The notes under the pieces: model-generated
Database searches by the model: none
What the model was told of the DNA's origin: nothing
The model's input: the letters and a program-made list of their open reading frames with translations, nothing else
From: Halioglobus sp.
GTDB taxonomy: Bacteria; Pseudomonadota; Gammaproteobacteria; Pseudomonadales; Halieaceae
Length of the DNA: 64,000 nt
Assembly (NCBI GenBank): GCA_002699145.1
Contig: PABK01000052.1
Location: forward strand, 1-64,000
Reading direction: 5' to 3'
Position numbers and translations under genes: made by a program
In this document: positions 758 through 45,464 of the stretch, piece after piece
How positions within the stretch are numbered: the first letter of the stretch is position 1
Layout of the letters: every line of letters begins with the position of its first letter

Positions 758-949
758 ATGAAATGGGTAAAGCTACCCAAATATTGTGAATTGAGCGGTG
801 ATACCGCCAACGCGGTTCATGCCCGCCGCAAAAAAGGGCTCTGGTTGGATGGCGTTCATTGTCAAGTCAGGAATCACACCCTCTGGATCAATATCGAGGC
901 AGTTGAAAAATGGGTAGAGAACGGTCTGTTAAGCTCGCGCAAGGCGTAA
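758..949 (+). CDS. Excisionase-like small DNA-binding protein (Xis)
   Basis: A 63-residue protein of the type found directly upstream of phage integrases: an N-terminal MKWVKLPKYCELSG, a short HTH-like stretch, then LWINIEAVEKWVENG. It would bend DNA at the attachment site and bias the integrase towards excision. Its last 40 bases overlap the start of the integrase gene in another frame, typical of translationally coupled xis-int pairs. Confidence 0.7.
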   Translation: MKWVKLPKYCELSGDTANAVHARRKKGLWLDGVHCQVRNHTLWINIEAVEKWVENGLLSSRKA

Positions 950-2151
950 GAATCCGCACTTACACGAGCGGTAAACAGGCTATTGAAATTCAGTTTCAAT
1001 ATCGGGGCGTACAATGCAAGGAAACTCTGGCGACACTGGATCCTTCGAAAAAGGGTGACCAGCGCTACGCCGTCAATCTGAAAGCCGAAATCGAAGGCGC
1101 CATTGCAAGGCAGACTTTTCAATATGAAGCGTATTTCCCGGAATCCAAGCGGGCACGCCTATTTGGTCACGCCAATTCACAGATCACCATCCGAGAGCTG
1201 ATCGAGGAATGGCTGAAAGATATTGAGCGCACTCACCCGCACAGTACTTATCGCTGCTATCGAAAAAGTTGTAATGCCCACCTGTTCCCCCAGTTTGGCG
1301 ACATCCGAGCGCGCAATTTAACACCGCAACACATTCGTACTTGGATACGCGAGCGTAGCGGGACCTTGAAAAGTATCCGCAATGATCTGACGCCGCTGCG
1401 CGCTGTTCTGGATCGGGCGTTAAACGATGACATCATCGACCGTAATCCATTGGATAAGATCAAGGTCAGCAAGCTAGTAGATCGCAACCAAGCCAAAACC
1501 GACTATGAGGTCGACCCGTTCACAACCACGGAAATCAACAAGGTTCTCCAAAGCGCTCTGAATTACGATCCGCGCATCTGCAACCTACTGAAATTTGCGT
1601 TCTTCTCCGGGTTGAGAACATCGGAGTTGTTCGGTCTGCAGTGGGGCGATGTCGATTGGGATCAGCGTGAAATACATATCCAACGCGCCGTGGTAGAACG
1701 CCAATTAAAGGAAACCAAAACTCGAGCCAGCAACCGGAAAGTTCTCTTGTTACCTGCCGCTTATGATGCGCTAACACACCAGAAGCAATTCAGCTTTGTC
1801 GGCAGTGACTACATCTTCATCCGGCCGGACGACAAGGGGCCTTTCATCGACTATGAACATCTAGAGCGCCCCTGGAAACATATTCTGAAAACAGCCAAGG
1901 TCCGCTACCGCAACCCCTACCAGACCCGGCACACCTACGCGAGCCAATTACTTTCCGGTGGCGAAAACCCGTTGTTCGTCGCGCAGCAGATGGGACACAA
2001 AACCACGGAGATGATCATGCGGCACTATGGGCGTTGGGTCGAACAAGGAGATCAACGTCAGCGGCATGTATTCGTCTCCGATTTCGGCCAGGGCGTCAAG
2101 GAGCCACGGCCACCCTACCCGCACGATGGTAACTACGCCTCTGCTGCGTAG
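910..2151 (+). CDS. Tyrosine integrase of the first element
   Basis: This 413-residue phage-type recombinase has an N-terminal arm-binding domain (about 1-60), a core-binding domain (about 95-185) and a C-terminal catalytic domain. The catalytic arginine is in FFSGLRTSELFGL. Box II reads YQTRHTYAS, with Tyr at the usual first His, a known variant. MGHKTTE supplies the late His and MRHYGRW the nucleophilic tyrosine. The ATG at 910 overlaps the excisionase; no strong Shine-Dalgarno is visible, so coupled translation is likely. Confidence 0.9.
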   Translation: MGRERSVKLAQGVRIRTYTSGKQAIEIQFQYRGVQCKETLATLDPSKKGDQRYAVNLKAEIEGAIARQTFQYEAYFPESKRARLFGHANSQITIRELIEEWLKDIERTHPHSTYRCYRKSCNAHLFPQFGDIRARNLTPQHIRTWIRERSGTLKSIRNDLTPLRAVLDRALNDDIIDRNPLDKIKVSKLVDRNQAKTDYEVDPFTTTEINKVLQSALNYDPRICNLLKFAFFSGLRTSELFGLQWGDVDWDQREIHIQRAVVERQLKETKTRASNRKVLLLPAAYDALTHQKQFSFVGSDYIFIRPDDKGPFIDYEHLERPWKHILKTAKVRYRNPYQTRHTYASQLLSGGENPLFVAQQMGHKTTEMIMRHYGRWVEQGDQRQRHVFVSDFGQGVKEPRPPYPHDGNYASAA

Positions 2152-7595: not shown

Positions 7596-9239
7596 TTACA
7601 AATCACGATCCTCTTCCGGTCCTCTTGGTTCCCCCGGTGCCTTGCCTGAGCTCCGCTTCCGGCCATAGCGCTGCACGGCGGGCCCTACGCGCGGCCCCGT
7701 GCCACCCGCCTGTTCGCCGCTTGCCGCCCCGTCGCCTTCTCCGGCGGCACCCGCGAAGGTTTCGGTGAGATCAATCTCGGCTTTTTCGCTATCACGCGCC
7801 TTCTTGAACTGGTCTTCCAGCCCGCGATTTTTGTAACGGTTCTTGGCCTTATGAGGTACAGCGCGCCGCCCCGGCGGAGAGAGATCCAGGTTGAGCGAGG
7901 GCATCTGGGCCTTTCCGCCGCGCATGTGAATGCGGGCTTCGCGCTTGATACTTTCATTCAGCGTGGCAAGCTCGCGCTGCTCGACCTTCTCTAGCGACCG
8001 CAATTTCCTGCCACTCTCAAGGTTTTCAAATTCATGGCGGCGCTGCTGTTCGGTCTTGGCAGCCTCCTGCCGGGCTTTCAGGTCACTACGCTCTTCCAAA
8101 TATGCGTCTATCGCCTTACGGTCTTGTCGCTTATGGAGCTTTTCGCGGATAAGGTTAACGCCGCTCACCTTCCCCAAAAAGGCGGCGAGACCGGTCGGTT
8201 TATAGCGCCGGTCACGGAGTTCTTTCAGGACTGATAGATGCTGATTACGGAGCTCTTCACGCTCCCTTTTCTGCTCGTTTTGAAGGAATAGCCGCTCTTT
8301 ATCCTGCCGGATTTTGATCGCTTTCTGATCAGAAAGCAGGTCCTTGCGGCGATGTTCCTGCTTCTTTTTCAGCATGGAAAGCTGCGCGCCGCGCTGCTCT
8401 TCCTTAAGGTAGCCTTCCATGATCTTGCGGTAATCAGCGATGATTTTCTTCGCTTCATCAACGCTTGGCAGGCTTTCCGGCGGGTATTCATCAGCAAGAA
8501 GAGCGGCAACATCTTTCGCGCGCACGCTCTTGTCATCGATCATTTTCGGCAGCGATGCCATCCCGCCATAAAAGTCAACCAGCACGTAAGGCCGCTTGCC
8601 TGTGGCCAGCAAATAGCCCTTTTCCTCTAACGATTTGACGAAGGCTTTTGCGCTATCGGATGCCCGCCAGGCTTCCGTGACCTGCTCCATCCGGTCTTCT
8701 TTAGTGATACCGGTGGCGCGCTCTTGCTGCCGCTCAAACTGGGTCGGCGGCTGCCGATCACTACCATTTTTCTTGTGATACCCTTCCGGTAATGAGAGAT
8801 CATGGTCACGGGCAAACTGCCGGGAGACCGTCATCAGCTTGTCGTGATCAAAGGCAAGATGGACGGCCTTTTCATTTTCTACATCCACTTTTGACCAGAC
8901 GACATGGCAGTGCTCGCGCCCGTCTTTGATGTGAAAGACGACAGCGCGCGGCTGGCTGGTAAGCCCCAGTTTTTCTTCCGCGCGGGTGATGTAATCATCA
9001 TATTGCGCGCGCGTAAGACGCCCCTGGCTTTCATCAGGACTGATGGCCAGCGCGTATAGATAGTTCTTGCATTTGGTGAGGGCGTGGGCCTGGAGCTCCC
9101 ATTCTGCGAACGCACCGTGGAGATCATCGGCCACAGCGCCGCGAATAGAGGCAAGCTCTACATAGTCATTTTGGAAGGCGTTCATCAGGTGGGTGGCATG
9201 TTTATCACCGCCGCTGAGTTCCATGGCAACAGGGATCAT
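7596..9239 (-). CDS. Relaxase (VirD2/MobA-like)
   Basis: 547 residues. The N-terminal relaxase domain carries the metal-binding HxH motif in DGREHCHVVWSKVD (about residues 106-119) and an upstream conserved YDDYITRAEEKLGL; an N-terminal tyrosine would be the nicking residue. A long Arg/Lys/Glu-rich coiled-coil segment follows (about 280-450) and ends in a basic low-complexity tail, possibly a transfer signal. It nicks oriT and pilots the strand through a type IV channel. Its start overlaps the end of mobC by four bases. No mating-pore genes are nearby, so the element is mobilizable rather than self-transmissible. Confidence 0.88.
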   Translation of the reverse strand: MIPVAMELSGGDKHATHLMNAFQNDYVELASIRGAVADDLHGAFAEWELQAHALTKCKNYLYALAISPDESQGRLTRAQYDDYITRAEEKLGLTSQPRAVVFHIKDGREHCHVVWSKVDVENEKAVHLAFDHDKLMTVSRQFARDHDLSLPEGYHKKNGSDRQPPTQFERQQERATGITKEDRMEQVTEAWRASDSAKAFVKSLEEKGYLLATGKRPYVLVDFYGGMASLPKMIDDKSVRAKDVAALLADEYPPESLPSVDEAKKIIADYRKIMEGYLKEEQRGAQLSMLKKKQEHRRKDLLSDQKAIKIRQDKERLFLQNEQKREREELRNQHLSVLKELRDRRYKPTGLAAFLGKVSGVNLIREKLHKRQDRKAIDAYLEERSDLKARQEAAKTEQQRRHEFENLESGRKLRSLEKVEQRELATLNESIKREARIHMRGGKAQMPSLNLDLSPPGRRAVPHKAKNRYKNRGLEDQFKKARDSEKAEIDLTETFAGAAGEGDGAASGEQAGGTGPRVGPAVQRYGRKRSSGKAPGEPRGPEEDRDL

Positions 9240-11097: not shown

Positions 11098-11130
11098 GCG
11101 CGCCAGGCCGCCTCCTTTTAAGACAAGAAT

Positions 11131-11168
11131 AACGGCAAGGGATGGTTGGTCCCTTGCCGTTTTTTTTA
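11131..11168. terminator. Bidirectional terminator
   Basis: AACGGCAAGGGA (11131-11142) and its exact complement (11150-11161) form a 12-bp stem with a 7-nt loop, followed by a T run on the plus strand. It lies between the SprT-like gene and the convergent small gene, so it can serve both. Confidence 0.9.
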
Positions 11169-11895: not shown

Positions 11896-13440
11896 ATGGC
11901 CGATAAAATCCATCCGATCATGCAGGATATTCCGCGCGGCGTGGCCGGGCGGTTTCTCAAGCAGCAATCCGCTCCCAAAGCGCAGTTTCAGCGCCCGGAG
12001 AAGATACGCGCGGCAAGGCGGCTTGATTATGATCCGGCGGCCCCGGGCAAGAAAATCCTGGTGGGGGCATTAGAAGACAAGCTCATCGGTATCGCCGATG
12101 AGGCCCATATGCTGACCGTCGCCGGATCACGCTCCGGCAAGTCCCTTCACGTCATTGCCAATCTCTTGCACTATCGCGGCTCGGTGCTTGCCACCGATCC
12201 CAAGGGCGAGCTTGCCAATATCACCGCCGAAAGGCGGGCTGCACTGGGCCAGGCGGTCCATGTGCTGGACCCGTTCGGCTATTGCGCCGAACGTCTTAAG
12301 GGCTTCCGCGCCGCCTATAACCCGATGAAGGTCTTAAGCTGGGGCAGTCCCACCTTTATTGAGGATGCGAGCCTGATCGCGGAAGCCCTGGTCGTGAAGG
12401 CGCAAGGCAATAAAGACGCGCACTGGGATGAGAGTGCCCAGAACTTCATCGAGGGTGTCATCCTGCATGTGGCCACCTACCCGGCTCATAAGGACGAAAG
12501 CCATCTCATCACAGTGCGTGAGCTGATTAAGGCGGCGATGATGCCTCACCCGGATAGCACCGAGGAGGACCCGCTCTGCGATTTGGAGCGGCACATGCTG
12601 GAAAATGCGCATTTTCTTAAGAACCACCCCCTCATGAAGGATGTCGCCGGGGCCATCGAAGGCGCGGCGCGCGATTTCTACGAAAAGAGCGACCGGGAGC
12701 GCGATTCCGTGCTCTCGGTCGTGCGGCGGCATACCAAGTTTCTGGACTATACCGCGATGCGGGGAGTCCTGACCGGCCATGATTTTGATCTCTCTGATCT
12801 AAAGACCGGCAAGGACGGCGTAACCGTCTATATGTGCTTTCCGGCCACGCGGGTCGAGATGAGCAACCGGTGGCTTAGGATATTCATCAACCAGCTCCTG
12901 GATGCCATGGAGCGGGAAAAGACCAAAACCGAGGCGCCTGTCCTCGTGTGTCTGGATGAGTTTCCGGTACTCGGATATATGAAGCAGCTTGAGAACGCCA
13001 TCGGCCAGGTGGCCTCCTTCGGCGTGAAACTCTGGGTCATCCTGCAAGACTGGAATCAGGGCAAAGCGCTTTACAAGGAACGCTGGGAGAGTTTTGCGGC
13101 CAATGCCGGAATCATGCAGTTCTTCGGGATCAATGATCTGACCACCGCCGAATATGTCTCCAAGAAGCTCGGCAAAACCCAGATCAAGGTCGCCCGCGAA
13201 AGCGAAGTCGGGCCGGAGGCCCAGACGCACGGCCTCAGCGGGCAGAGCGAGGCTATTGAACTCCATGATCTGATGAGCCCGGAAGAAATATCCCGGTTCT
13301 TTTCAAGGAATGATGTCAAAAAGCGGCAGCTTGTCATCTGGACGGGCAAGCACCCGATGGTATTGGAGCGGGTCGAGTATTTTAACGCGCAAAGCCCGCT
13401 GCACGGTCATTTCAAGGGGCTATACGCGCTACCGGAATAG
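11896..13440 (+). CDS. Type IV coupling protein (TraG/VirD4-like ATPase)
   Basis: 514 residues. Walker A is AGSRSGKS (about 77-84) and Walker B is VLVCLDEFPVLG (about 350), with the family-typical ATDPKGELA and DEFP motifs. Coupling proteins feed the relaxase-DNA complex into a type IV secretion channel. It lacks the usual N-terminal transmembrane pair, so it may be a soluble subtype or rely on a partner. GAGAGG lies ahead of the ATG. With the relaxase it makes the element mobilizable by a co-resident conjugation system. Confidence 0.9.
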   Translation: MADKIHPIMQDIPRGVAGRFLKQQSAPKAQFQRPEKIRAARRLDYDPAAPGKKILVGALEDKLIGIADEAHMLTVAGSRSGKSLHVIANLLHYRGSVLATDPKGELANITAERRAALGQAVHVLDPFGYCAERLKGFRAAYNPMKVLSWGSPTFIEDASLIAEALVVKAQGNKDAHWDESAQNFIEGVILHVATYPAHKDESHLITVRELIKAAMMPHPDSTEEDPLCDLERHMLENAHFLKNHPLMKDVAGAIEGAARDFYEKSDRERDSVLSVVRRHTKFLDYTAMRGVLTGHDFDLSDLKTGKDGVTVYMCFPATRVEMSNRWLRIFINQLLDAMEREKTKTEAPVLVCLDEFPVLGYMKQLENAIGQVASFGVKLWVILQDWNQGKALYKERWESFAANAGIMQFFGINDLTTAEYVSKKLGKTQIKVARESEVGPEAQTHGLSGQSEAIELHDLMSPEEISRFFSRNDVKKRQLVIWTGKHPMVLERVEYFNAQSPLHGHFKGLYALPE

Positions 13441-16879: not shown

Positions 16880-16903
16880 AGGAGGCCGCTTACGCGGCCT
16901 CCT
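16880..16903. terminator. Convergent terminator between AAA+ gene and ardC
   Basis: A 10-bp perfect hairpin, AGGAGGCCGC (16880-16889), loop TTAC, GCGGCCTCCT (16894-16903), lies at the meeting point of the two genes and includes the ardC stop codon. No long T run on either side. Confidence 0.55.
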
Positions 16904-17798
16904 GCTCCTTTCCCTGCAAGCCGTGAAGATAATTGACGGCGCGTTGCGCGTGGGCGGCGGCGCGGAAGATGGCCCGCTTGTCGTCTTTCAGGACTTTCAG
17001 CCAGGAGGCTATATAGGCTGAATGGTCATCCCTGTCCTCTAAGCTAATCTCAAGATCAGCGCAGAGGAAGGCGGCCCCGAGTTCGGCGACCAGTTCTTCT
17101 TCAGCATAACCTTCATCGCCCCACTTTTTGCGGCCAAAGTCGCGGTCCAGGCGGCTCTCATGCTTGGTCCAGTGGGTCATTTCGTGCGCGAGGGTCGCGT
17201 AGTAGCTTTCCGCGTCCCGGAAGGCTTCGATGTAGGGAAGCTTCACGGTATCGGCACCGGCTGCGTAGTAGGCCCGGTCGCCGCCATGATGGATATCGGC
17301 CTTGGTGGCGGTGAAGAAGGTATCGGCTCTTTCGATCCGTTCTACCGGATCGCCGGAAGGAACCGGCTTTTCGTAGAAGTGCTCCGGGAGCCCTTCGATC
17401 TGCTCGACATTGAAGACGCTGTAGCCTTTCATGTAGGGGATGGTTTGCTCGACCTCCTCGCCCTGGTCGTTTTCTTCTGTGCGGGTGAGCGTATTCGCAT
17501 AGACGACAGGTGAGCCTTTCTGGCCTTTGATGACGCACCCGCCAAGCTCTCCCGCTTGCCGGAAGGTCATCCAGGTGGACGCGCTAAAGCCCTGTTCCAT
17601 GGCGCTGCCCCAGAGGGAGAGGATGTTTATCCCCTGGTAGGCTTCCCCGTTATGACGCTTGGGGATGATGATCCGGCCTTCGGTGTTTCCGGCGCTCCAG
17701 GGTTTGGTCCAGCTTTTAACCCCGCGTTCCAGATCGGCAATGATGCTGTTCGTGATGCGGGTGTAGATATCGGGCTTTTTGCTGTTTGCGTTTGACAT
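16890..17798 (-). CDS. ardC: ArdC-like antirestriction protein
   Basis: 302 residues from the ATG at 17798, preceded by AAGGAAAC. N-terminal ArdC ssDNA-binding domain (YTRITNSIIADLERGVKSWTKPW, AYQGINILSLW) and C-terminal zincin domain with LAHEMTHWTKH and EELVAELGAAFL. ArdC of plasmid pSa binds single-stranded DNA and protects incoming DNA. A 140-nt structured leader ends 23 nt before the start codon. A second ArdC homologue lies at 44403-45257 in another element. Confidence 0.9.
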   Translation of the reverse strand: MSNANSKKPDIYTRITNSIIADLERGVKSWTKPWSAGNTEGRIIIPKRHNGEAYQGINILSLWGSAMEQGFSASTWMTFRQAGELGGCVIKGQKGSPVVYANTLTRTEENDQGEEVEQTIPYMKGYSVFNVEQIEGLPEHFYEKPVPSGDPVERIERADTFFTATKADIHHGGDRAYYAAGADTVKLPYIEAFRDAESYYATLAHEMTHWTKHESRLDRDFGRKKWGDEGYAEEELVAELGAAFLCADLEISLEDRDDHSAYIASWLKVLKDDKRAIFRAAAHAQRAVNYLHGLQGKEQEAA

Positions 17799-17820
17799 GA
17801 CAAGTTTCCTTTTTGGTTTT

Positions 17821-17960
17821 GCGAGAGTGCAAAACGGGGAAGCTTTGCCGGGGATCAAAGAGGACCGGTCAAGGGAAGCTGGCGCGGCCCGCAAGCTTTG
17901 CTGAGGACACGGACCCTTGACCGGGCCGCGGCCCCGGCCATAATGCCCCGCACCTCTCGC
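17821..17960 (-). ncRNA. Candidate type-1 structured leader, copy a (upstream of ardC)
   Basis: On the minus strand: outer stem CTCTCGC/GCGAGAG (17954-17960 with 17821-17827) plus GCA/TGC and CCCC/GGGG; then a perfect 11-bp stem CCGGTCAAGGG (17914-17924 with 17865-17875). The apical loop reads TCCGTGTCCTC, a small AGC/GCT hairpin, then TTGCGGGCCGC. The same CCGTGTCCTC ... TTGCGGGCCGC words occur in copy b inside an 11-bp stem of different sequence, which is covariation. It ends 23 nt before ardC. Confidence 0.65.
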
Positions 17961-18567
17961 AGAAGAACCAAAAAGGAAGAACGCCGGAATAAACGCGCTA
18001 TATCAGCAAAAAGCCCGGTGCACCTTTGGCCGAAGCACGGACCATGCCGATACCTGTACAGGGAAAACGATAGAAACCAAACCCCGCCGGATGAAGGGAC
18101 AATCCCCCTGTCTGCCAGCGAGAAAGCCAGAGCCTCTCTCCCTTAAAGCGCCAGGGGGCTGCTTTTAAGTGAAACCGTAAAACGGCAGGACCATGGCAGT
18201 CATATAGCCAAAGGTCTCAAGACCCGCCGGATATTTTTTGCGTCTGCGCCCGCGTCATGGGGACGAACGGGTATCCTTCATGGACGCGCAGACCGTCCCG
18301 GTAACAGCTACAACCGGGATACCAGCCGAACACGAACAAGAAGCCACACACATCACCGCCATGGCGCTACAGCGATGGCACCTACCGGCAACCTTTTAAA
18401 GACCGAACTTGCGGAACATCAATGAAGGAACAGGCAAGGGCCATCAATGCCCTTCTCCTCTTCGTTACGACCGCTAAGGGCGGTGCATAGCCTTCCCTGA
18501 GATCAGCGTCATCAGTCCTTCCATGAAAGGTCGCGATAGGCGCGGCCTCCACACCATGGAGGAGATT
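17961..18567. other. Intergenic stretch with small hairpins, no gene
   Basis: Only weak structure: GGTCT/GACC near 18213-18224, a 7-bp pair GTCTGCG (18242-18248) / CGCAGAC (18287-18293), and AAGGGC/GCCCTT near 18442. Possible reading frames here have no family resemblance and no ribosome-binding site except the small gene at 18568. Confidence 0.4.
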
Positions 18568-18759
18568 ATGAGACTTCTTACGATATTCGAACTGGCATCC
18601 CGCAGCGATACTGAACTCTCTGTCATCTATAAGGATATGTTCAATGAACTGGCCCGCAGTGCCGCAGGCACGCCCGAGCGGCGCAATGCACTCGGCAGCC
18701 TGGAAAATATCCGGCGGGTCATGCGATCAAGGCCACAGCCCAAAGGGCCATGGCCTTGA
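18568..18759 (+). CDS. Small helical hypothetical protein
   Basis: 63 residues from the ATG at 18568, which has GGAGGAG immediately upstream. Pattern: LLTIFELASRSDTELSVIYKDMFNELARS, then TPERRNALGSLENIRRVM. The pattern looks like a small conserved mobile-element protein, though I cannot search for homologues. Function unknown; the Ser/Asp-Glu helix pair suggests a small dimer. Followed by a terminator. Confidence 0.6.
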   Translation: MRLLTIFELASRSDTELSVIYKDMFNELARSAAGTPERRNALGSLENIRRVMRSRPQPKGPWP

Positions 18760-18778
18760 CCTATGCCGTTTTCCGATA

Positions 18779-18806
18779 ATGAAAAGCTCCTATGGGAGCT
18801 TTTCAT
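18779..18806. terminator. Bidirectional terminator
   Basis: Perfect 12-bp arms ATGAAAAGCTCC (18779-18790) and the complement (18795-18806) with a 4-nt loop. A/T-rich distal arms give a T run in both directions. It separates the plus-strand small gene from the convergent gene at 18790 and covers that gene's last codons. Confidence 0.8.
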
Positions 18807-19101
18807 CGAGTAGCTGGACGATTTCTGCTGGCAGATAGTCATGCGGATCATCGTAGCCAAAGGTGACTTTCGGATCATCATGCGGAATCAGCTCGATACC
18901 GTTCTTCTTGATCGAAATAATGACAAGATTGTGCAGACCCCATTCGTCTAACTTCACTTCGTATCCGGCTTCAATCAGCACATCTTCGACATCATGGGTC
19001 TGTATCTGGCCGTCACCATCCATGAATCCGAACTTCTCAAACGCTTCGGTCCAGGACCAGTGATAGTTGTTTCCGCAGTGGTAACATTCGTCTATTGGCA
19101 T
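18790..19101 (-). CDS. Small hypothetical protein with CxxC
   Basis: 103 residues. It starts MPIDECYHCGNNYHWSW, whose CxxC could be half a metal site, then an acidic beta-rich region (VEDVLIEAGYEVKLDEWGLHNLVIISIKKNGIELIP). It has a Shine-Dalgarno AGGAG before its ATG and lies in front of ardA on the same strand. Function unknown; position among antirestriction genes hints at an anti-defence role. Confidence 0.55.
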   Translation of the reverse strand: MPIDECYHCGNNYHWSWTEAFEKFGFMDGDGQIQTHDVEDVLIEAGYEVKLDEWGLHNLVIISIKKNGIELIPHDDPKVTFGYDDPHDYLPAEIVQLLDEKLP

Positions 19102-19150
19102 TGTTTTTCTCCTATTGGTTGGTTGTTGATTATTTTTGTAAAAACGCGCA

Positions 19151-19636
19151 TCAAAACTCCTGCGCGTTGGTAACGATCAATTCGCGTTCTATTTCAGTGA
19201 TTTCGCCATTGATCTTCATGTCACGTGCGATGGCGTCATAGTCGATGTAGTAGCGAAGGGTCTCCGGGATTTCGGTCGTCTCATTGATGAGCTCGTAGGC
19301 GTAATCGCTCGCTGTCCCTTCGAAGAGACAAACATCTTCGTAGCGGTCCATGGTGTCGCTGATGTTGTAACCGAGGTCGAGTAGAAACATGATCTGTGTG
19401 GCAGCGGTTTCATCAAGGTCTTCGAGCTCCTCGTACCAGTCGTGGACACTGCCCTGATGGATGTGGGCGGCGGCGGCCAGGCCGACGAGATGGGTCTCGC
19501 CGTCGATCACCTGGATTTCGACTTCTTCACAGCCCTGGCTGTTGAGCTTTTCCATTCCGGCTTCAAAGCTTTCAATGCTGTTGAAATAAAACCCGGTGTG
19601 ATCGAGTGAATATGGTTGTGCGTAGAATTCGGTCAT
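19151..19636 (-). CDS. ardA: ArdA-like antirestriction protein
   Basis: 161 residues from the ATG at 19636 (AGGAG upstream). Highly acidic; shows the ArdA pattern FYAQPYSLDHTGFYFNS, HDWYEELEDLDETAATQIMFLLDLGYNI and DYAYELINETTEIPETLRYYIDYDAIARDM. ArdA mimics bent B-DNA and blocks type I restriction enzymes. A type-1 structured leader lies 20-190 nt upstream. In many conjugative elements ardA lies in the leading region and is expressed early after entry. Confidence 0.88.
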   Translation of the reverse strand: MTEFYAQPYSLDHTGFYFNSIESFEAGMEKLNSQGCEEVEIQVIDGETHLVGLAAAAHIHQGSVHDWYEELEDLDETAATQIMFLLDLGYNISDTMDRYEDVCLFEGTASDYAYELINETTEIPETLRYYIDYDAIARDMKINGEITEIERELIVTNAQEF

Positions 19637-19656
19637 TTTCCTATCTCCTGCTATTT

Positions 19657-19829
19657 GTGAAATCGTGGTTTCGGAGAAAGCGCGGAAATATGAGGAACGG
19701 AATAGCCCGAAACCCCTCTTGGTGCGGCCCGCAAGGGGCATCGCCCCGAGGACACGGTGAGGGGTTTCGCCGCTAGGGCAGGCTTGCAGAGACGAAGACC
19801 GCGCTAAAGTAACCACACTGATATTTCAC
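19657..19829 (-). ncRNA. Candidate type-1 structured leader, copy b (upstream of ardA)
   Basis: Nested stems: GTGAAAT (19657-19663) / ATTTCAC (19823-19829), GTGGTT (19665-19670) / AACCAC (19811-19816), GCGCGG (19680-19685) / CCGCGC (19799-19804), and an exact 11-bp stem CGAAACCCCTC (19708-19718) / complement (19759-19769). Read on the minus strand the loop is ACCGTGTCCTC, hairpin GGGGC-gat-GCCCC, TTGCGGGCCGC. The loop words match copy a while all stems differ. Confidence 0.65.
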
Positions 19830-19831
19830 TT

Positions 19832-20752
19832 ATGGCAGGAGAGAATGACCGGGGCACTACCCCCTATCACGATGACCACACCGGTTATGATCTTTCAGCC
19901 TGGAGCCCGGAACTGATCCGTGTCACAGTAAGAACCATGAAGATTTACGGTATCGATTTCACGAGCGCGCCTTCTGCCAAAAAGCCGATCACCTGCCTTG
20001 AATGTGAACTCACCGGTATAGAGCTCACCGCAGGAACGCTGACCGAATGGCAGAGCTTCGAGGCGTTCGAGCGCGGATTACAGCGTCCCGGTCTATGGAT
20101 TGCCGGGATCGACTTCCCGTTTGGACAGGCACGGCGCTTTATCGAGACTATCTTCTGGCCAGAGACCTGGCACGGCTATGTCACCCATGCGGCAAAGCTG
20201 GGCAAAGCGGGCTTTGAGCAAGCGCTTGATGATTATGCCGCTTGCCGCCCTGACGGCGACAAGCATCATTTCAGGCGGGATGATAAACGGGCAAACTCCC
20301 AGAGCCCCCAGAAGCTGCACTTCGTGCCGGTGGGCAAGATGTTTTTTCAGGGGGCCCCAAGGCTCATAGAATCCGGCGTCACCATCCCCGGTCTCCAGCA
20401 AGGTGATCCCGAGCGGATCGTGGTCGAGGCCTATCCGGGTGTCCTCGCCCGCTACCTCATCGGCGGCAGGCCTTACAAAGCCGAAACCAAAAAGGGACAG
20501 ACAACAGAAAAACACACTGCCCGGCAGGACATCCTCAAAACCATCGAGACAGGAAAGCTTGCCGTCCATTACGGCCTGACGGTCTCAGCGCCAGCAACCC
20601 TGGCCGATGATCCGACTGGGGATCATCTCGATGCCCTGCTCTGCGCCATACAAGCAGCATGGGCCTGGTCAAAACGTGACCACAGCTACGGCATGCCGGA
20701 GGTGACCGATCCGCTGGAAGGCTGGATCGCCGATCCCATGCCGGGTCGCTGA
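19832..20752 (+). CDS. DUF429-like predicted nuclease
   Basis: 306 residues from 19832, or 271 from an in-frame ATG at 19937 just before the conserved core. The core starts MKIYGIDFTSAPSAKKP, followed by AGIDFPFGQARRF, EAYPGVLARYL and DHLDALLCAIQAAW. These acidic motifs match the DUF429 RNase H-like fold, predicted from family to be a nuclease. It diverges from ardA across the copy-b leader. Substrate unknown. Confidence 0.7.
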   Translation: MAGENDRGTTPYHDDHTGYDLSAWSPELIRVTVRTMKIYGIDFTSAPSAKKPITCLECELTGIELTAGTLTEWQSFEAFERGLQRPGLWIAGIDFPFGQARRFIETIFWPETWHGYVTHAAKLGKAGFEQALDDYAACRPDGDKHHFRRDDKRANSQSPQKLHFVPVGKMFFQGAPRLIESGVTIPGLQQGDPERIVVEAYPGVLARYLIGGRPYKAETKKGQTTEKHTARQDILKTIETGKLAVHYGLTVSAPATLADDPTGDHLDALLCAIQAAWAWSKRDHSYGMPEVTDPLEGWIADPMPGR

Positions 20753-28977: not shown

Positions 28978-29402
28978 CAATAAAAACAATAGATTACGAG
29001 CTGGTCGAATTCATTCCGGAACAGCTTGAAGACGGTATTCTCTACATATCAGAGCCCTACAATACGGCAGCCCACAAATGCTGCTGCGGCTGCGGCGAAG
29101 AAGTCATCACGCCGCTGAACCCGACAGACTGGTCGGTGAAGTTCACGAATGGCAAAGTCAGCCTTTTCCCGTCTATCGGCAACTGGAGTTTTGCTTGCCG
29201 CTCGCATTACTGGGTACGCGGTGGCCAGGTCCTCTGGTCCTATGACATGTCCGAGGAGGCCATTCAGCGCGGCAGAGATATCGACAGGAAGCTCAAAGAG
29301 CAATATTTCGAGGACATCAATCGCGATAAAGGTGCCGCCCCTTCCTGGACGGCCAGAATCGGCAATATCTTAAAGGCCTTAGGGAAGTGGCTAAAAAAGT
29401 AA
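28974..29402 (+). CDS. DUF6527 protein (ubiquitin-like operon)
   Basis: 142 residues. A four-Cys cluster (HKCCCGCGEEV) with FACRSHYW downstream suggests a zinc site; ends in a basic amphipathic helix (IGNILKALGKWLKK). DUF6527 genes regularly follow multiubiquitin and ThiF genes, so this completes a known but functionally obscure operon. It might be the peptidase or target-recognition part; that is speculation. Confidence 0.78.
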   Translation: MTIKTIDYELVEFIPEQLEDGILYISEPYNTAAHKCCCGCGEEVITPLNPTDWSVKFTNGKVSLFPSIGNWSFACRSHYWVRGGQVLWSYDMSEEAIQRGRDIDRKLKEQYFEDINRDKGAAPSWTARIGNILKALGKWLKK

Positions 29403-29407
29403 ACACG

Positions 29408-29551
29408 ATAAACGAAAAACAAAACAGCATGATAAACTAGAAATAATAAAGCACAATAAACTAAATATACCTAGACATAATAGACTAAATAGTGTACAAC
29501 TTAATATACTAGAAATGAAACAGCGCAATAAACTAGATTGAGAACGCCTGT
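29408..29551. repeat. Six tandem 24-bp repeats upstream of the Fic gene
   Basis: Units begin at 29408, 29432, 29456, 29480, 29504 and 29528, exactly 24 bp apart. Each starts ATANACNA (strongest ATAAACTAGAAAT); several end CAGCRCA or similar. The block is AT-rich in a GC-richer setting and ends 31 bp before the Fic start. Exact spacing over six units with diverged sequence means the spacing is selected, as in protein-binding iterons. There are no unique spacers, so it is not CRISPR. Confidence 0.85.
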
Positions 29552-29581: not shown

Positions 29582-31102
29582 ATGGCTACGCCATCAGAAA
29601 AGCTTGCAGACTCCCTGGAGGTCCTAAAGGAGCTACAGGACCAGGGTACTGTGGCGATCAGGTCGCGTGATCTCAGCCGCACACACCGTGAAAGGCTCGC
29701 TAAAAGCGGCTTTCTGCAAGAAGTGATCAAGGGATGGTATAGCCCGTCCCGCCCGGATGAGCAGGCCGGAGAGAGCACCTCATGGTATGCCTCCTTCTGG
29801 GGCTTTTGCGCCTCCTATCTGGAAAGTCGTTTTGATGAGGATTGGTGCTTGTCGCCGGAACAATCTCTGTCAATCCATACGGGCAACAGGACTGTGCCCC
29901 GGCAATTGCTCGTCAGAACAACAAAAGGAACCAATAATGTCACCAACCTGCCCTATGACACATCGCTGCTCGATATCAAATTAGAGATACCGGATAAAAA
30001 AAATACCGATGTCATAGAAGGCTTACGCCTGTTCTCGCTACCGGCGGCACTCATCGCCTGCGCGCCTGCCAGCTACAGACAAAATCCGACCGACATCCGC
30101 GCCGCTCTTGCCATGGTCAGCGACGCTTCAGACCTGCTGGAAAGACTGCTGAATGGCGGACACAGCACCATCGCCGGACGCCTGGCCGGGGCCTTCCGCA
30201 ATATAGGCCGGGATGACATCGCGGAGAACATAACCGGCACGATGGAAGCTGCCGGTTATACGGTACGCGAAAGCGACCCCTTTGAGGCCCCGAGCCCGAT
30301 GACATTCAGCAAGAGAGAGAGCTCGCCCTATGTTAGCCGCATCAGGATTTTGTGGTCACAAATGCGAGAAGAGGTCATCAAAGACTTCCCGGCGGCCCCC
30401 GGAATTGCGACGGACAAGGCCGCGTACCTGAAAGAGATTGATGACCTCTACACCTCGGACGCCTATCACTCGCTCTCTATCGAGGGCTATCGCGTGAGCA
30501 CCGACCTCATAGAGAGGGTAAAGTCCGGGACCTGGAATCCGGATAATGACGAAGGTGACCGGGACCACCGCGACGCCATGGCCGCACGAGGGTACTGGCA
30601 GGCCTTCCAGGCCGTCAAAGCGAGTATCGAAAAAATTCTGGATGGTGAAAATCCTGGCACGATAGTCAGACAGGATCATGCCATCTGGTATCGGGAACTC
30701 TGGGCTCCCAGCGTTACAGCAGGCATCTTAAAACCCGGTGACCTGGCTGGTTACAGAAATGGCCCCGTCTTTATCCGTCGGTCTATGCACGCGCCGCCAA
30801 AAAAAGAAGCCGTCCGCGACCTCATGCCCGCCTTCTTTGATTTGCTCGAAGAAGAAACCGAACCGGCTGCCCGGGTTGTCCTTGGACATTTTATCTTTGT
30901 GTATATCCACCCCTATATGGACGGCAACGGCAGAATCGGACGCTTTCTCATGAACACCATGATGGCTTCCGGCGGCTACCCGTGGACTATCATCCCGGTC
31001 GAAAAGAGAACGGCGTACATGGCGGCCCTGGAAAGCGCTAGCGTCAAGCAGGACATCAGGCCTTTTGCAGCGTTTATGGCCGATTTGATGAAAACCAACT
31101 AG
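29582..31102 (+). CDS. Fic-domain protein with AbiEi-like N-terminus
   Basis: 506 residues. The Fic motif HPYMDGNGRIGRF (about 445) is complete, and the inhibitory motif SLSIEG (about 300) is present, so activity is probably self-restrained. The N-terminal ~180 residues (IRSRDLSRTHRERLAKSGFLQEVIKGWYSPS, then a beta-rich region) look like the winged-helix plus core of AbiEi antitoxins. A DNA-binding regulator thus appears fused to an AMPylating enzyme; the 24-bp array upstream is a plausible binding site. Target unknown. Confidence 0.82.
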   Translation: MATPSEKLADSLEVLKELQDQGTVAIRSRDLSRTHRERLAKSGFLQEVIKGWYSPSRPDEQAGESTSWYASFWGFCASYLESRFDEDWCLSPEQSLSIHTGNRTVPRQLLVRTTKGTNNVTNLPYDTSLLDIKLEIPDKKNTDVIEGLRLFSLPAALIACAPASYRQNPTDIRAALAMVSDASDLLERLLNGGHSTIAGRLAGAFRNIGRDDIAENITGTMEAAGYTVRESDPFEAPSPMTFSKRESSPYVSRIRILWSQMREEVIKDFPAAPGIATDKAAYLKEIDDLYTSDAYHSLSIEGYRVSTDLIERVKSGTWNPDNDEGDRDHRDAMAARGYWQAFQAVKASIEKILDGENPGTIVRQDHAIWYRELWAPSVTAGILKPGDLAGYRNGPVFIRRSMHAPPKKEAVRDLMPAFFDLLEEETEPAARVVLGHFIFVYIHPYMDGNGRIGRFLMNTMMASGGYPWTIIPVEKRTAYMAALESASVKQDIRPFAAFMADLMKTN

Positions 31103-44402: not shown

Positions 44403-45257
44403 TCACACCCCCTCCCCCGCCAGGATAAAGGCGCGGGCTTTATACGCTTGGTTCACAGCTCCGAGGAAAGCTTCCGCTTCCGCGTGGATGAAGCGTGACC
44501 ATCCCTGCAGGTAGGCGGCGCTGTTCTGGATGCTCGCCTGGCTATCCACCTCACAATCGTGGCACAACATCGCCGCGGTGATCTCCGCGACCAGTTCTTC
44601 CCTTGAGTACTCGTCTTTGCTCTCGAAGCGTCCGGCATCGGCGGCGAATCGGCATAGTCGGTGTGGGTGGCCGGTACTGTGGGCCAGTTCGTGAAAGTAG
44701 GTGCTGTAAAACTCGTCGGTTGAGACCACTTCCTCGACGGAGGGCATGTATACCCGGTCCAGGGCAGGCGCATAAGCCGGCGCACCGTGACTGACGCTGA
44801 TCTGTTCACGGGCGAGGTAGCGTGTAGCGATGTGTTCGGCGCCACTCACTCGTACCGATTTCCCTGTAGCCGACTGTGGTATGGACACCATCTGTACGTC
44901 CCTGACCAGGTCTAGGTTGAACACAAAACTATGCCGTATCACGAAACGCGCTTGTTCAGTGTCCTCGCTATCGCTTGCATCCAGGCGCTTGTAGAAGATG
45001 ATCGGTACCCCCTTCCCTTTCGCCTCGGTAAGTTGGCCGCCGGCCTGCTGGATCTGCCTGAAGGTAGCCCAGTAGGGGCTCTTATAGTCCTCGGTATTGG
45101 CGACGATCGCGGTAATGAACTGATTGATCCCTTGGTAGGCCTTGCCACTGAATGCATTGGACTGTGCCCTGATCAGGCATGGGTTGTGCCAGATGAGATC
45201 TCCCGCACTCATATGGGCTTTCAGGGTTTCAATGACTTTTTGTAGACTCTTGTGCAT
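44403..45257 (-). CDS. Second ArdC-like protein (zincin)
   Basis: 284 residues from the ATG at 45257 (GAGG 9 nt upstream); an ATG at 45281 is the alternative. ArdC-like N-terminus (KVIETLKAHMSAGDLIWHNPCL, SGKAYQGINQFI) and zincin motif TYFHELAHSTGHPHR with EELVAEITAAML. Colinear with ArdC at 16890-17798 but only distantly similar. It has its own structured leader (type 2), ending close to the start. Confidence 0.82.
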   Translation of the reverse strand: MHKSLQKVIETLKAHMSAGDLIWHNPCLIRAQSNAFSGKAYQGINQFITAIVANTEDYKSPYWATFRQIQQAGGQLTEAKGKGVPIIFYKRLDASDSEDTEQARFVIRHSFVFNLDLVRDVQMVSIPQSATGKSVRVSGAEHIATRYLAREQISVSHGAPAYAPALDRVYMPSVEEVVSTDEFYSTYFHELAHSTGHPHRLCRFAADAGRFESKDEYSREELVAEITAAMLCHDCEVDSQASIQNSAAYLQGWSRFIHAEAEAFLGAVNQAYKARAFILAGEGV

Positions 45258-45288
45258 GCTGTTGTCCTCGCGGTAGCTCATGTGATCG

Positions 45289-45464
45289 CCCTCTGGGGGC
45301 GAAGGCCCGGGACAGCTCGCCCGGCGAGCGACCCGCTGGCTTGGCCGTGTCCGGGCAGGGGGAGCCACCCGGCCTGCAAGGCGAGAGCAACGCGCACAAC
45401 TGAAGGCCGGGGGATGCCTGGACCAAGGCCAAACAGCGGCTAGGATGAGCCTCTCCCCAGAGGG
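45289..45464 (-). ncRNA. Candidate type-2 structured leader, copy A (upstream of ardC-like gene)
   Basis: Closed by CCCTCTGGGG (from 45464) pairing with CCCCAGAGGG (45289-45298). Read on the minus strand it contains CTAGCCGC, CTTGGTCCAGGCATC, CCCGGCCT pairing with AGGCCGGG, TGCCCGGACACGG and a GCTCGCC/GCGAGC hairpin. The same words in the same order occur in copy B at 51798-51979. Ends 8 nt before the alternative gene start. Confidence 0.6.

Follow-up and report, generated by a model that had tools for sequence, protein, structure and literature searches.

The window analyzed here, that is, the whole stretch of DNA under study, comprises 64,000 nucleotides (nt) of the Halioglobus sp. contig PABK01000052.1 (positions 1-64,000, forward strand) and holds an element that looks like an integrative mobilizable element, since an integrase, a relaxase of the MobA/VirD2 type and a coupling protein are present (Table 1). 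The element also carries ardC and ardA, each of which is preceded by a structured leader. The profiles confirm that both leaders point at antirestriction genes, as the first-pass annotation of the sequence had stated (ArdC, PF08401/PF18818; ArdA, PF07275). The core of each leader is an 11-bp stem that encloses two short words, CCGTGTCCTC and TTGCGGGCCGC, the second of which is a near-palindrome, with a small hairpin between the words. Both stems are exact 11-bp pairs whose arm letters are unrelated between the ardC and ardA leaders, and the inner hairpins are also unlike (AGC-AAA-GCT and GGGGC-GAT-GCCCC, respectively). A search for the two words in combination gave two matches in the window, compared with an expectation of 0.00 from 100 shuffles, and likewise only two in the whole assembly of this organism. 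The claim of exact stems with unrelated letters around the same loop words thus held.

The further claim that outer stems pair in each copy despite their differing sequences was borne out by folding, and the longer folds include the ribosome-binding sites. The fold z-scores of the ardC leader were -3.2 as RNA and -6.0 as + strand DNA. When more flank is included, the outer stems of the ardA hairpin cover the ardA ribosome-binding site and extend to a divergent DUF429 open reading frame (ORF). The idea that this outer ardA stem pairs "twin" start codons of ardA and DUF429 was dropped, as the second ATG lies in another frame and the DUF429 ORF may begin at either 19832 or 19937. The first-pass annotation had given 17821-19829 as one interval with two leaders and had spoken of three copies; the two leaders are there, but each is a hairpin of its own and a 103-codon ORF and ardA lie in the space that separates them, and a covariance model found no third copy in the window (next E 0.23) or in the organism's own genome (next E 0.16).

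Table 1. Coordinates of the genes, leaders and promoter-like sites in the window, and of the cores on tiny plasmids.
Feature	Position	Strand	Basis or remark
Integrase	910-2151		
Relaxase, MobA/VirD2 type	7596-9239	-	PF03432; same strand as both leaders
Coupling protein	11896-13440		
ardC	16890-17798	-	PF08401 + PF18818; start ATG from sequence
Whole ardC hairpin as + strand single-stranded DNA	17809-17975	+	fold z -5.95; 0/200 shuffles as good
ardC hairpin outer stems	17821-17827/17954-17960; 17847-17853/17932-17938	+	DNA fold; outermost over the ardC ribosome-binding site
Predicted ardC message start when the 5' arm is template	17829-17832	-	deduced from -10 position, ~32 nt before the start codon
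ardC leader core: 11-bp stem, CCGTGTCCTC, small hairpin, TTGCGGGCCGC	17865-17924	-	exact pattern; covariance model built without it, E 6e-10
ardC leader arms	17865-17875 / 17914-17924	-	sequence
ardC leader CCGTGTCCTC	17903-17912	-	sequence
ardC leader TTGCGGGCCGC	17884-17894	-	sequence
sigma70-like promoter, 3' arm of folded strand: TTGACC 17917-17922, 16 nt, CATAAT 17939-17944	17917-17944	+	10/12 consensus matches
ardA	19151-19636	-	PF07275; start ATG from sequence
Whole ardA hairpin as + strand single-stranded DNA	19657-19829	+	fold z only -1.4 to -1.5
ardA leader core: 11-bp stem, CCGTGTCCTC + TTGCGGGCCGC, other inner hairpin	19708-19769	-	exact pattern; covariance model built without it, E 2e-10
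ardA leader arms	19708-19718 / 19759-19769	-	sequence
ardA leader CCGTGTCCTC	19748-19757	-	sequence
ardA leader TTGCGGGCCGC	19724-19734	-	sequence
Weaker promoter-like pair, 3' arm of ardA hairpin: TTGCAG 19784-19789, 15 nt, TAAAGT 19805-19810	19784-19810	+	score 8.2
Second ArdC-like gene	44403-45368	-	PF08401, PF18818; region with other integrase genes
Tiny-plasmid core, L170	2035-2097		CCGAGTCCTC variant; one per plasmid, non-coding
Tiny-plasmid core, L171	484-546		CCGAGTCCTC variant; one per plasmid, non-coding
Tiny-plasmid core, L169	190-251		CCGAGTCCTC variant; one per plasmid, non-coding

Alignment of the two window copies alone with MAFFT misaligned the stems, and the covariation test therefore rests on 58 copies from outside the window (alignment A4). 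These belong to a set of 66 non-redundant copies that was additionally filtered for CC after the second word; A4 leaves out the two window copies and six outside copies with a weaker stem. The two words are invariant in A4 by virtue of the search pattern and hence provide no evidence, while the search put no constraint on the inner hairpin, the stem or the outer stem. In A4, which has 57 distinct sequences, 79.4% of the cells of the named structure were paired (56.1 when shuffled), 158 cells had changed on both sides (65.4 when shuffled) and the covariation score was 0.557 (0.203 when shuffled), a value that none of 500 shuffles reached. Sliding the partner by 1-3 columns as a control gave a score of at most 0.253. 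Furthermore, an arm paired with its own partner in 93 of 103 copies, compared with 25.6 on average for a swapped partner. These data, with compensatory changes in the 58 outside copies, confirm the first-pass view that changed stems with kept pairing mark a selected structure.

The covariance model (R1) was built from the same 58 copies, all outside the window, and finds both window copies (E values in Table 1) as well as copies on plasmids of 2.0-2.5 kb (E 2e-14 to 2e-10). The first-pass annotation had named this search as its check and a lack of further copies with compensatory changes as grounds for giving the structure up; such copies exist. A pattern scan of one genome per species across 84,980 species matched at least 118 stretches, and among the 126 matches listed in these, 107 continue with NCC and 96 of the 107 also have a flanking stem. 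BLAST with the 37-nt core returned 450 plasmid records, part of which were inspected and not all of which are true copies; with the ardA core, plasmid matches came only at E 0.8 or worse, and the four that were inspected are real copies. In the class of the window, 11 of 370 sampled genomes, including its own, match the covariance model at E <=1e-4. Among the hosts are Ruegeria, Paracoccus, Phaeobacter, Variovorax, Achromobacter, Pseudomonas and Xanthomonas. One type of integrative and conjugative element (ICE) with leader copies, which its gene order suggests to be of the Tn4371 type, is carried on IncHI2, IncL/M, IncC and Pseudomonas aeruginosa plasmids. The two leaders thus belong to a large family that is spread over plasmids and ICEs of alpha-, beta- and gammaproteobacteria. 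Two other searches yielded no further members that we accepted: a scan of IMG/VR with a shorter pattern gave 41 stretches with a best stem score of 5.6, compared with 11 for the window copies, and was taken as chance, and a family-level genome search gave 2 of 140 genomes, one being the organism's own and the other lacking a convincing stem. No description of such a motif was found in the open-access literature, most subscription papers, preprints and supplements being outside that search.

The way in which the arms vary also bears on the possibility of a double-stranded operator, in which a repressor would bind the inverted repeats on duplex DNA and a recipient without repressor would show zygotic induction by derepression. 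Zygotic induction is known to result from derepression (PMC7314908), the establishment regulon of p576 is marked by upstream sequences that its genes have in common (PMC8708921), and the near-palindromic second word would suit such a site. However, an operator would keep its letters, whereas here the pairing of the arms is kept and their letters are not, and the two words are found in very different elements; on these two points we consider this explanation very improbable.

The first-pass annotation had left two readings side by side, a regulatory RNA leader and a folded single-stranded DNA (ssDNA) promoter like Frpo of plasmid F. If an mRNA leader had been selected, the gene strand should fold better. 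Both strands were folded with one parameter set, and it was the strand opposite the gene that folded better in 60 of the 66 non-redundant copies, with 5 showing the reverse (flank 90, DNA parameters), whereas 177 random control windows from the same loci gave a mean of +0.9 kcal/mol. With the core removed and the arms folded alone, the opposite strand was still better in 54 of 66 copies (10 reverse), and there were 137 arm-arm G-T pairs on the opposite strand compared with 42 on the gene strand. The excess over dinucleotide shuffles, uncorrected for relatedness among the copies, was -1.9 kcal/mol at flank 60 (48/66, p 8e-7) and -2.15 kcal/mol at flank 100 (48/66, p 2e-5). The inner stem was examined for mismatches in 58 of the 66 copies, 8 with a weak stem being dropped; wobble-type mismatches numbered 20 on the opposite strand and 8 on the gene strand, although other mismatches were commoner (74). 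The mRNA-sense strand is thus not the better folder, as it would be in an RNA leader, while the predicted fold and the strand asymmetry give the long + strand hairpin that is typical of the Frpo class and of single-strand initiation sites (ssi).

A cis-acting RNA element at the head of the ardC and ardA messages, be it a riboswitch, an attenuator or a protein-binding leader, would account for a selected structure upstream of genes, the fixed loop words with a variable stem resemble a ligand-binding RNA, the predicted RNA fold hides the ribosome-binding site, and one core pair changes from T-A to T-G. On the other side stand the weaker folding of the gene strand and its fewer wobble pairs, and the position of the ardA leader, which starts inside or beside the divergent DUF429 ORF. 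In addition, a consensus scan confined to the sigma70 type found no such site on the - strand in 17700-20200. Rfam 15 gave no match across the whole window at the gathering score, and for 17700-20000 at a permissive E-value it gave four matches only, all at E 2 or worse, so that the leaders belong to none of the RNA families described there. Taken together, these observations make an RNA leader improbable, and the folded ssDNA promoter is the reading that fits better. The preference is based on the strand asymmetry, on -35/-10 sites on the presumed transferred strand and on the orientation relative to the relaxase.

With regard to the promoter sites, TTGACC-16-CATAAT in the ardC leader is the best sigma70 match of the region, and on duplex DNA it faces away from ardC. 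In the folded + strand, as modelled, it would read the 5' arm as template, towards ardC; the predicted fold has the -35 paired, and the -10 faces 17840-17846 across a 7x7 internal loop. A short + strand ORF of only putative gene status (18569-18760) lies between the leaders, downstream of the duplex reading of this promoter. At ardA, the TAAAGT is partly unpaired in the predicted fold, and the promoter-like pair was not reported by a stricter consensus scan. Across the 66 copies, the mean sigma70 score was 5.36 on the opposite strand (2.93 shuffled) and 3.05 on the gene strand (3.52 shuffled). TTGAC occurs within 60 nt of the core on the opposite strand in 33 of 66 copies, compared with 2.2 when shuffled, and on the gene strand in 29 of 66, compared with 2.5; the latter would follow if pairing of the -35 is required. 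The unselected evidence for the 16-nt spacing consists of 11 of 66 copies in which TTGA(C/T)N-16-TAC(A/G)GT is the best match. In the ICE alignment (A5), whose 25 copies were picked for the combination of -35, spacing and -10, only the pairing and the spacer letters are informative, and these letters vary. For 12 copies (11 ICE copies and ardC) the predicted mean unpaired fraction was 0.04 at the -35 and 0.22 in the spacer. A -10 common to the whole family was considered and rejected, since it is present in some classes only. The sequence evidence for a promoter is thus firmest at ardC and in the ICE class, weak at ardA and ambiguous in several other classes. A Rhodobacterales class (L048, L056, L081, L090, L098, L108, L111 and L120) has a block like GGATG(C/T)(T/G)GGGCGGAC (or GCGTGGCGGAC) upstream of the core; it lies ~17 nt outside TTGAC, at the place of a -10, and is unlike TATAAT.

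We searched 11 plasmids for the relation of the leaders to the transfer genes, and in the nine that have a PF03432 relaxase, 20 of 23 model matches lie on the relaxase strand (one-sided sign test 0.00024, copies on one plasmid not being independent), as do both leaders in the window. The relaxase gene typically enters the recipient last, according to PMC11541004, and the better-folding strand would therefore be the transferred strand, which templates the downstream genes. The strand of the relaxase is consistent with transfer of the + strand of the window and with a position of ardC and ardA in the leading region. With three exceptions, and with presumed positions of the origin of transfer (oriT), the copies thus show the leading-region placement of the Frpo/ssi class. 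The three reversed copies (W01 26899, W02 80123 and W09 93085) lie 1 to 7 kb from the relaxase; in pP73_d and pPZ03 no other copy lies closer to it, and on pPAN1 it is the sole copy.

For the downstream genes we considered 26 copies, counting near-identical ICE copies once and leaving out five further plasmid matches and the tiny plasmids. A same-strand gene starts within 400 nt after the leader in 19 of the 26, and in 16 of these at about 130-200 nt. The genes encode ArdC-like proteins, ParB, DUF932, DUF3768, DUF3560 and DUF1419 proteins, a TraC-like primase and hypothetical proteins. On one plasmid, Arc7-R13 unnamed4, four leader copies each stand ahead of their own gene. This arrangement is not needed if the core is purely a single-strand initiation site (an ssi, or a single-strand origin, sso), at which the hairpin would give a primer, by RNA polymerase or primase, for the conversion of the incoming or displaced strand into duplex, with the downstream genes as bystanders or secondary beneficiaries. 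Such priming would suit the copies that lack a close same-strand gene, the fact that the whole set has the core and not the promoter in common, and the non-coding cores on tiny plasmids of 2292, 2547 and 2015 bp, two of which have RepL and a MobV relaxase; these cores are possible candidates for single-strand origins. We regard pure priming as unlikely, although it is the closest rival, and the element may have priming as a second role; the two readings overlap, since Frpo is itself described as doing both.

The family, the conserved structure, the folding strand, the relaxase orientation and the promoter-like sites in some copies all support the ssDNA-promoter reading, and we conclude that the leaders probably represent a Frpo-like family of ssDNA promoters that is unrelated in sequence to Frpo of F or the ssi of ColIb-P9. 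During transfer, the + strand would enter the recipient as ssDNA and each leader would fold into a long hairpin, the duplex arm of which would rebuild a sigma70 promoter with a TTGAC-like -35 outside the core and a -10 ~16 nt further out. Host RNA polymerase would then bind, start in the hairpin and copy the 5' arm, so that a message would enter ardC or ardA before the complementary strand exists. The loop words at the tip of the hairpin would occupy the place of an upstream promoter (UP) element and are probably read by a host component common to these Proteobacteria. Once the DNA has turned duplex, the hairpin would be lost and the same promoter would face the other way, which may shut the gene off; in any read-through message from the duplex, the ribosome-binding site would become paired within the outer stem. 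The predicted mean unpaired fraction at the ribosome-binding site is 0.11 (ardC) and 0.29 (ardA) in a long RNA, compared with 0.80 and 0.57 in a short RNA that begins at about the start expected from the hairpin promoter, and in a short ardC RNA starting at 17830 the site is predicted to be mostly free. These models suggest that read-through messages from duplex DNA are silenced. A more elaborate version, which we offer only tentatively and think has perhaps a modest chance of being right, is a switch set by the strand state of the DNA: one -35/-10 reads outward on duplex DNA (at ardA, towards DUF429) and along the opposite arm in the folded transferred strand, the loop words form a single-strand-specific element for a host factor common to alpha-, beta- and gammaproteobacteria, and the outer stem acts as a translational lock on all messages except those that start within the hairpin.

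Several observations weigh against the ssDNA-promoter reading. Three of the 23 copies are reversed relative to the relaxase (pP73_d 26899+, pPAN1 80123+ and pPZ03 93085+), the transferred strand and the oriT position are presumed ones, and the tiny plasmids with a core, among them the two with RepL and MobV, have no obvious leading region. Seven of the 26 copies have no annotated same-strand gene within 400 nt in a plasmid gene table that is incomplete (one copy on pP73_d, one on a Tritonibacter plasmid, and those on pPAN1, pP57_a, p12BC2, pL21634-2 and pAG1). Base composition accounts for about half of the strand asymmetry, and in 9 of 58 copies the core pair at columns 16-48 has become T-G instead of T-A on the gene strand, a change that would suit an RNA of that strand. 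With regard to the promoters, the -10 of the ICE class is mostly paired (unpaired 0.17-0.38), whereas that of ardC is open (0.75), and several classes lack a convincing -10, such as the small-plasmid class and the Rhodobacterales DUF3768-type class. Finally, the 15-nt spacing of the ardA pair is short and the ardA fold is weak (z -1.4 as RNA and -1.5 as + strand DNA), and this fold by itself would not convince.

One of the closest known systems is Frpo of F (ssiD; Frpo1/Frpo2), with which the leaders share the leading region, a long hairpin of the transferred strand with -35/-10 in its stem and a place before establishment genes, features that are predicted here. Frpo lies in the leading region of F and is described as a promoter that rebuilds -10/-35 by folding and is needed for early expression of downstream genes (PMC9849209; such ssDNA promoters are also treated in PMC11541004), and it also gives primers (PMC7736820). 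The tip has fixed words in the present family, whereas that of Frpo is described with an A+T-rich UP element (PMC11541004), and the present copies are found mainly on elements of the Rhodobacterales, Burkholderiales and Pseudomonas type. The ssDNA promoters ssi2 and ssi3 belong to the IncI1 plasmid ColIb-P9 (PMC7736820), whose ssb, psiB and ardA are expressed early after entry (PMC9849209). A sequence relation to either system was rejected: the core words are absent from the F stretch, and model R1 has no match either in the stretches of F and ColIb-P9 or in the whole record of either plasmid. Samuel et al. (PMC11541004) report 13,089 Frpo homologues in 6,006 elements, obtained by BLAST from five known sequences together with island candidates, and their Frpo'/Frpo* candidates (2024), which derive from BLAST with five known Frpo/ssi sequences or from island candidates, can be compared with the present family by description only. 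In the literature consulted, F and ColIb-P9 are the plasmids whose Frpo/ssi promoters were tested, others being predicted by similarity or consensus.

The leaders also resemble the upstream repeats of the p576 and pLS20 establishment genes, in that one upstream sequence is repeated before several genes of one plasmid. The CUP elements of pKM101 are likewise one upstream sequence repeated before several antirestriction genes. At the single-strand origins of rolling-circle plasmids, RNA polymerase acts on a folded single strand; such origins are described from Gram-positive plasmids and can be likened to the present core by description only, and the likeness extends to the presence of the core on tiny plasmids, two with RepL and MobV. 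The p576 set differs from the present family, as it is described as sharing 50-68% sequence identity (PMC8708921), whereas two words and the pairing are what is kept here.

Elsewhere in the window, neither the pattern nor the covariance model found a leader before the second ArdC-like gene (44403-45368). A+T-rich direct repeats with a 24-nt spacing lie at 29400-29538, just before a Fic-domain gene (29582-31102), and an inverted repeat with a T run at 11125-11167, after a SprT-like gene, resembles an ordinary terminator.

Since the family is recognisable by two fixed words and a covarying stem, it would allow early-expressed genes of leading regions to be located on the plasmids, ICEs and mobilizable elements of alpha-, beta- and gammaproteobacteria, among them ICEs carried by clinical plasmids. 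The genes that follow the leaders, including those encoding DUF3768, DUF3560 and DUF932 proteins, are candidates for functions in establishment or anti-defence, and the family raises the question of which factor reads the conserved loop words on single-stranded DNA.

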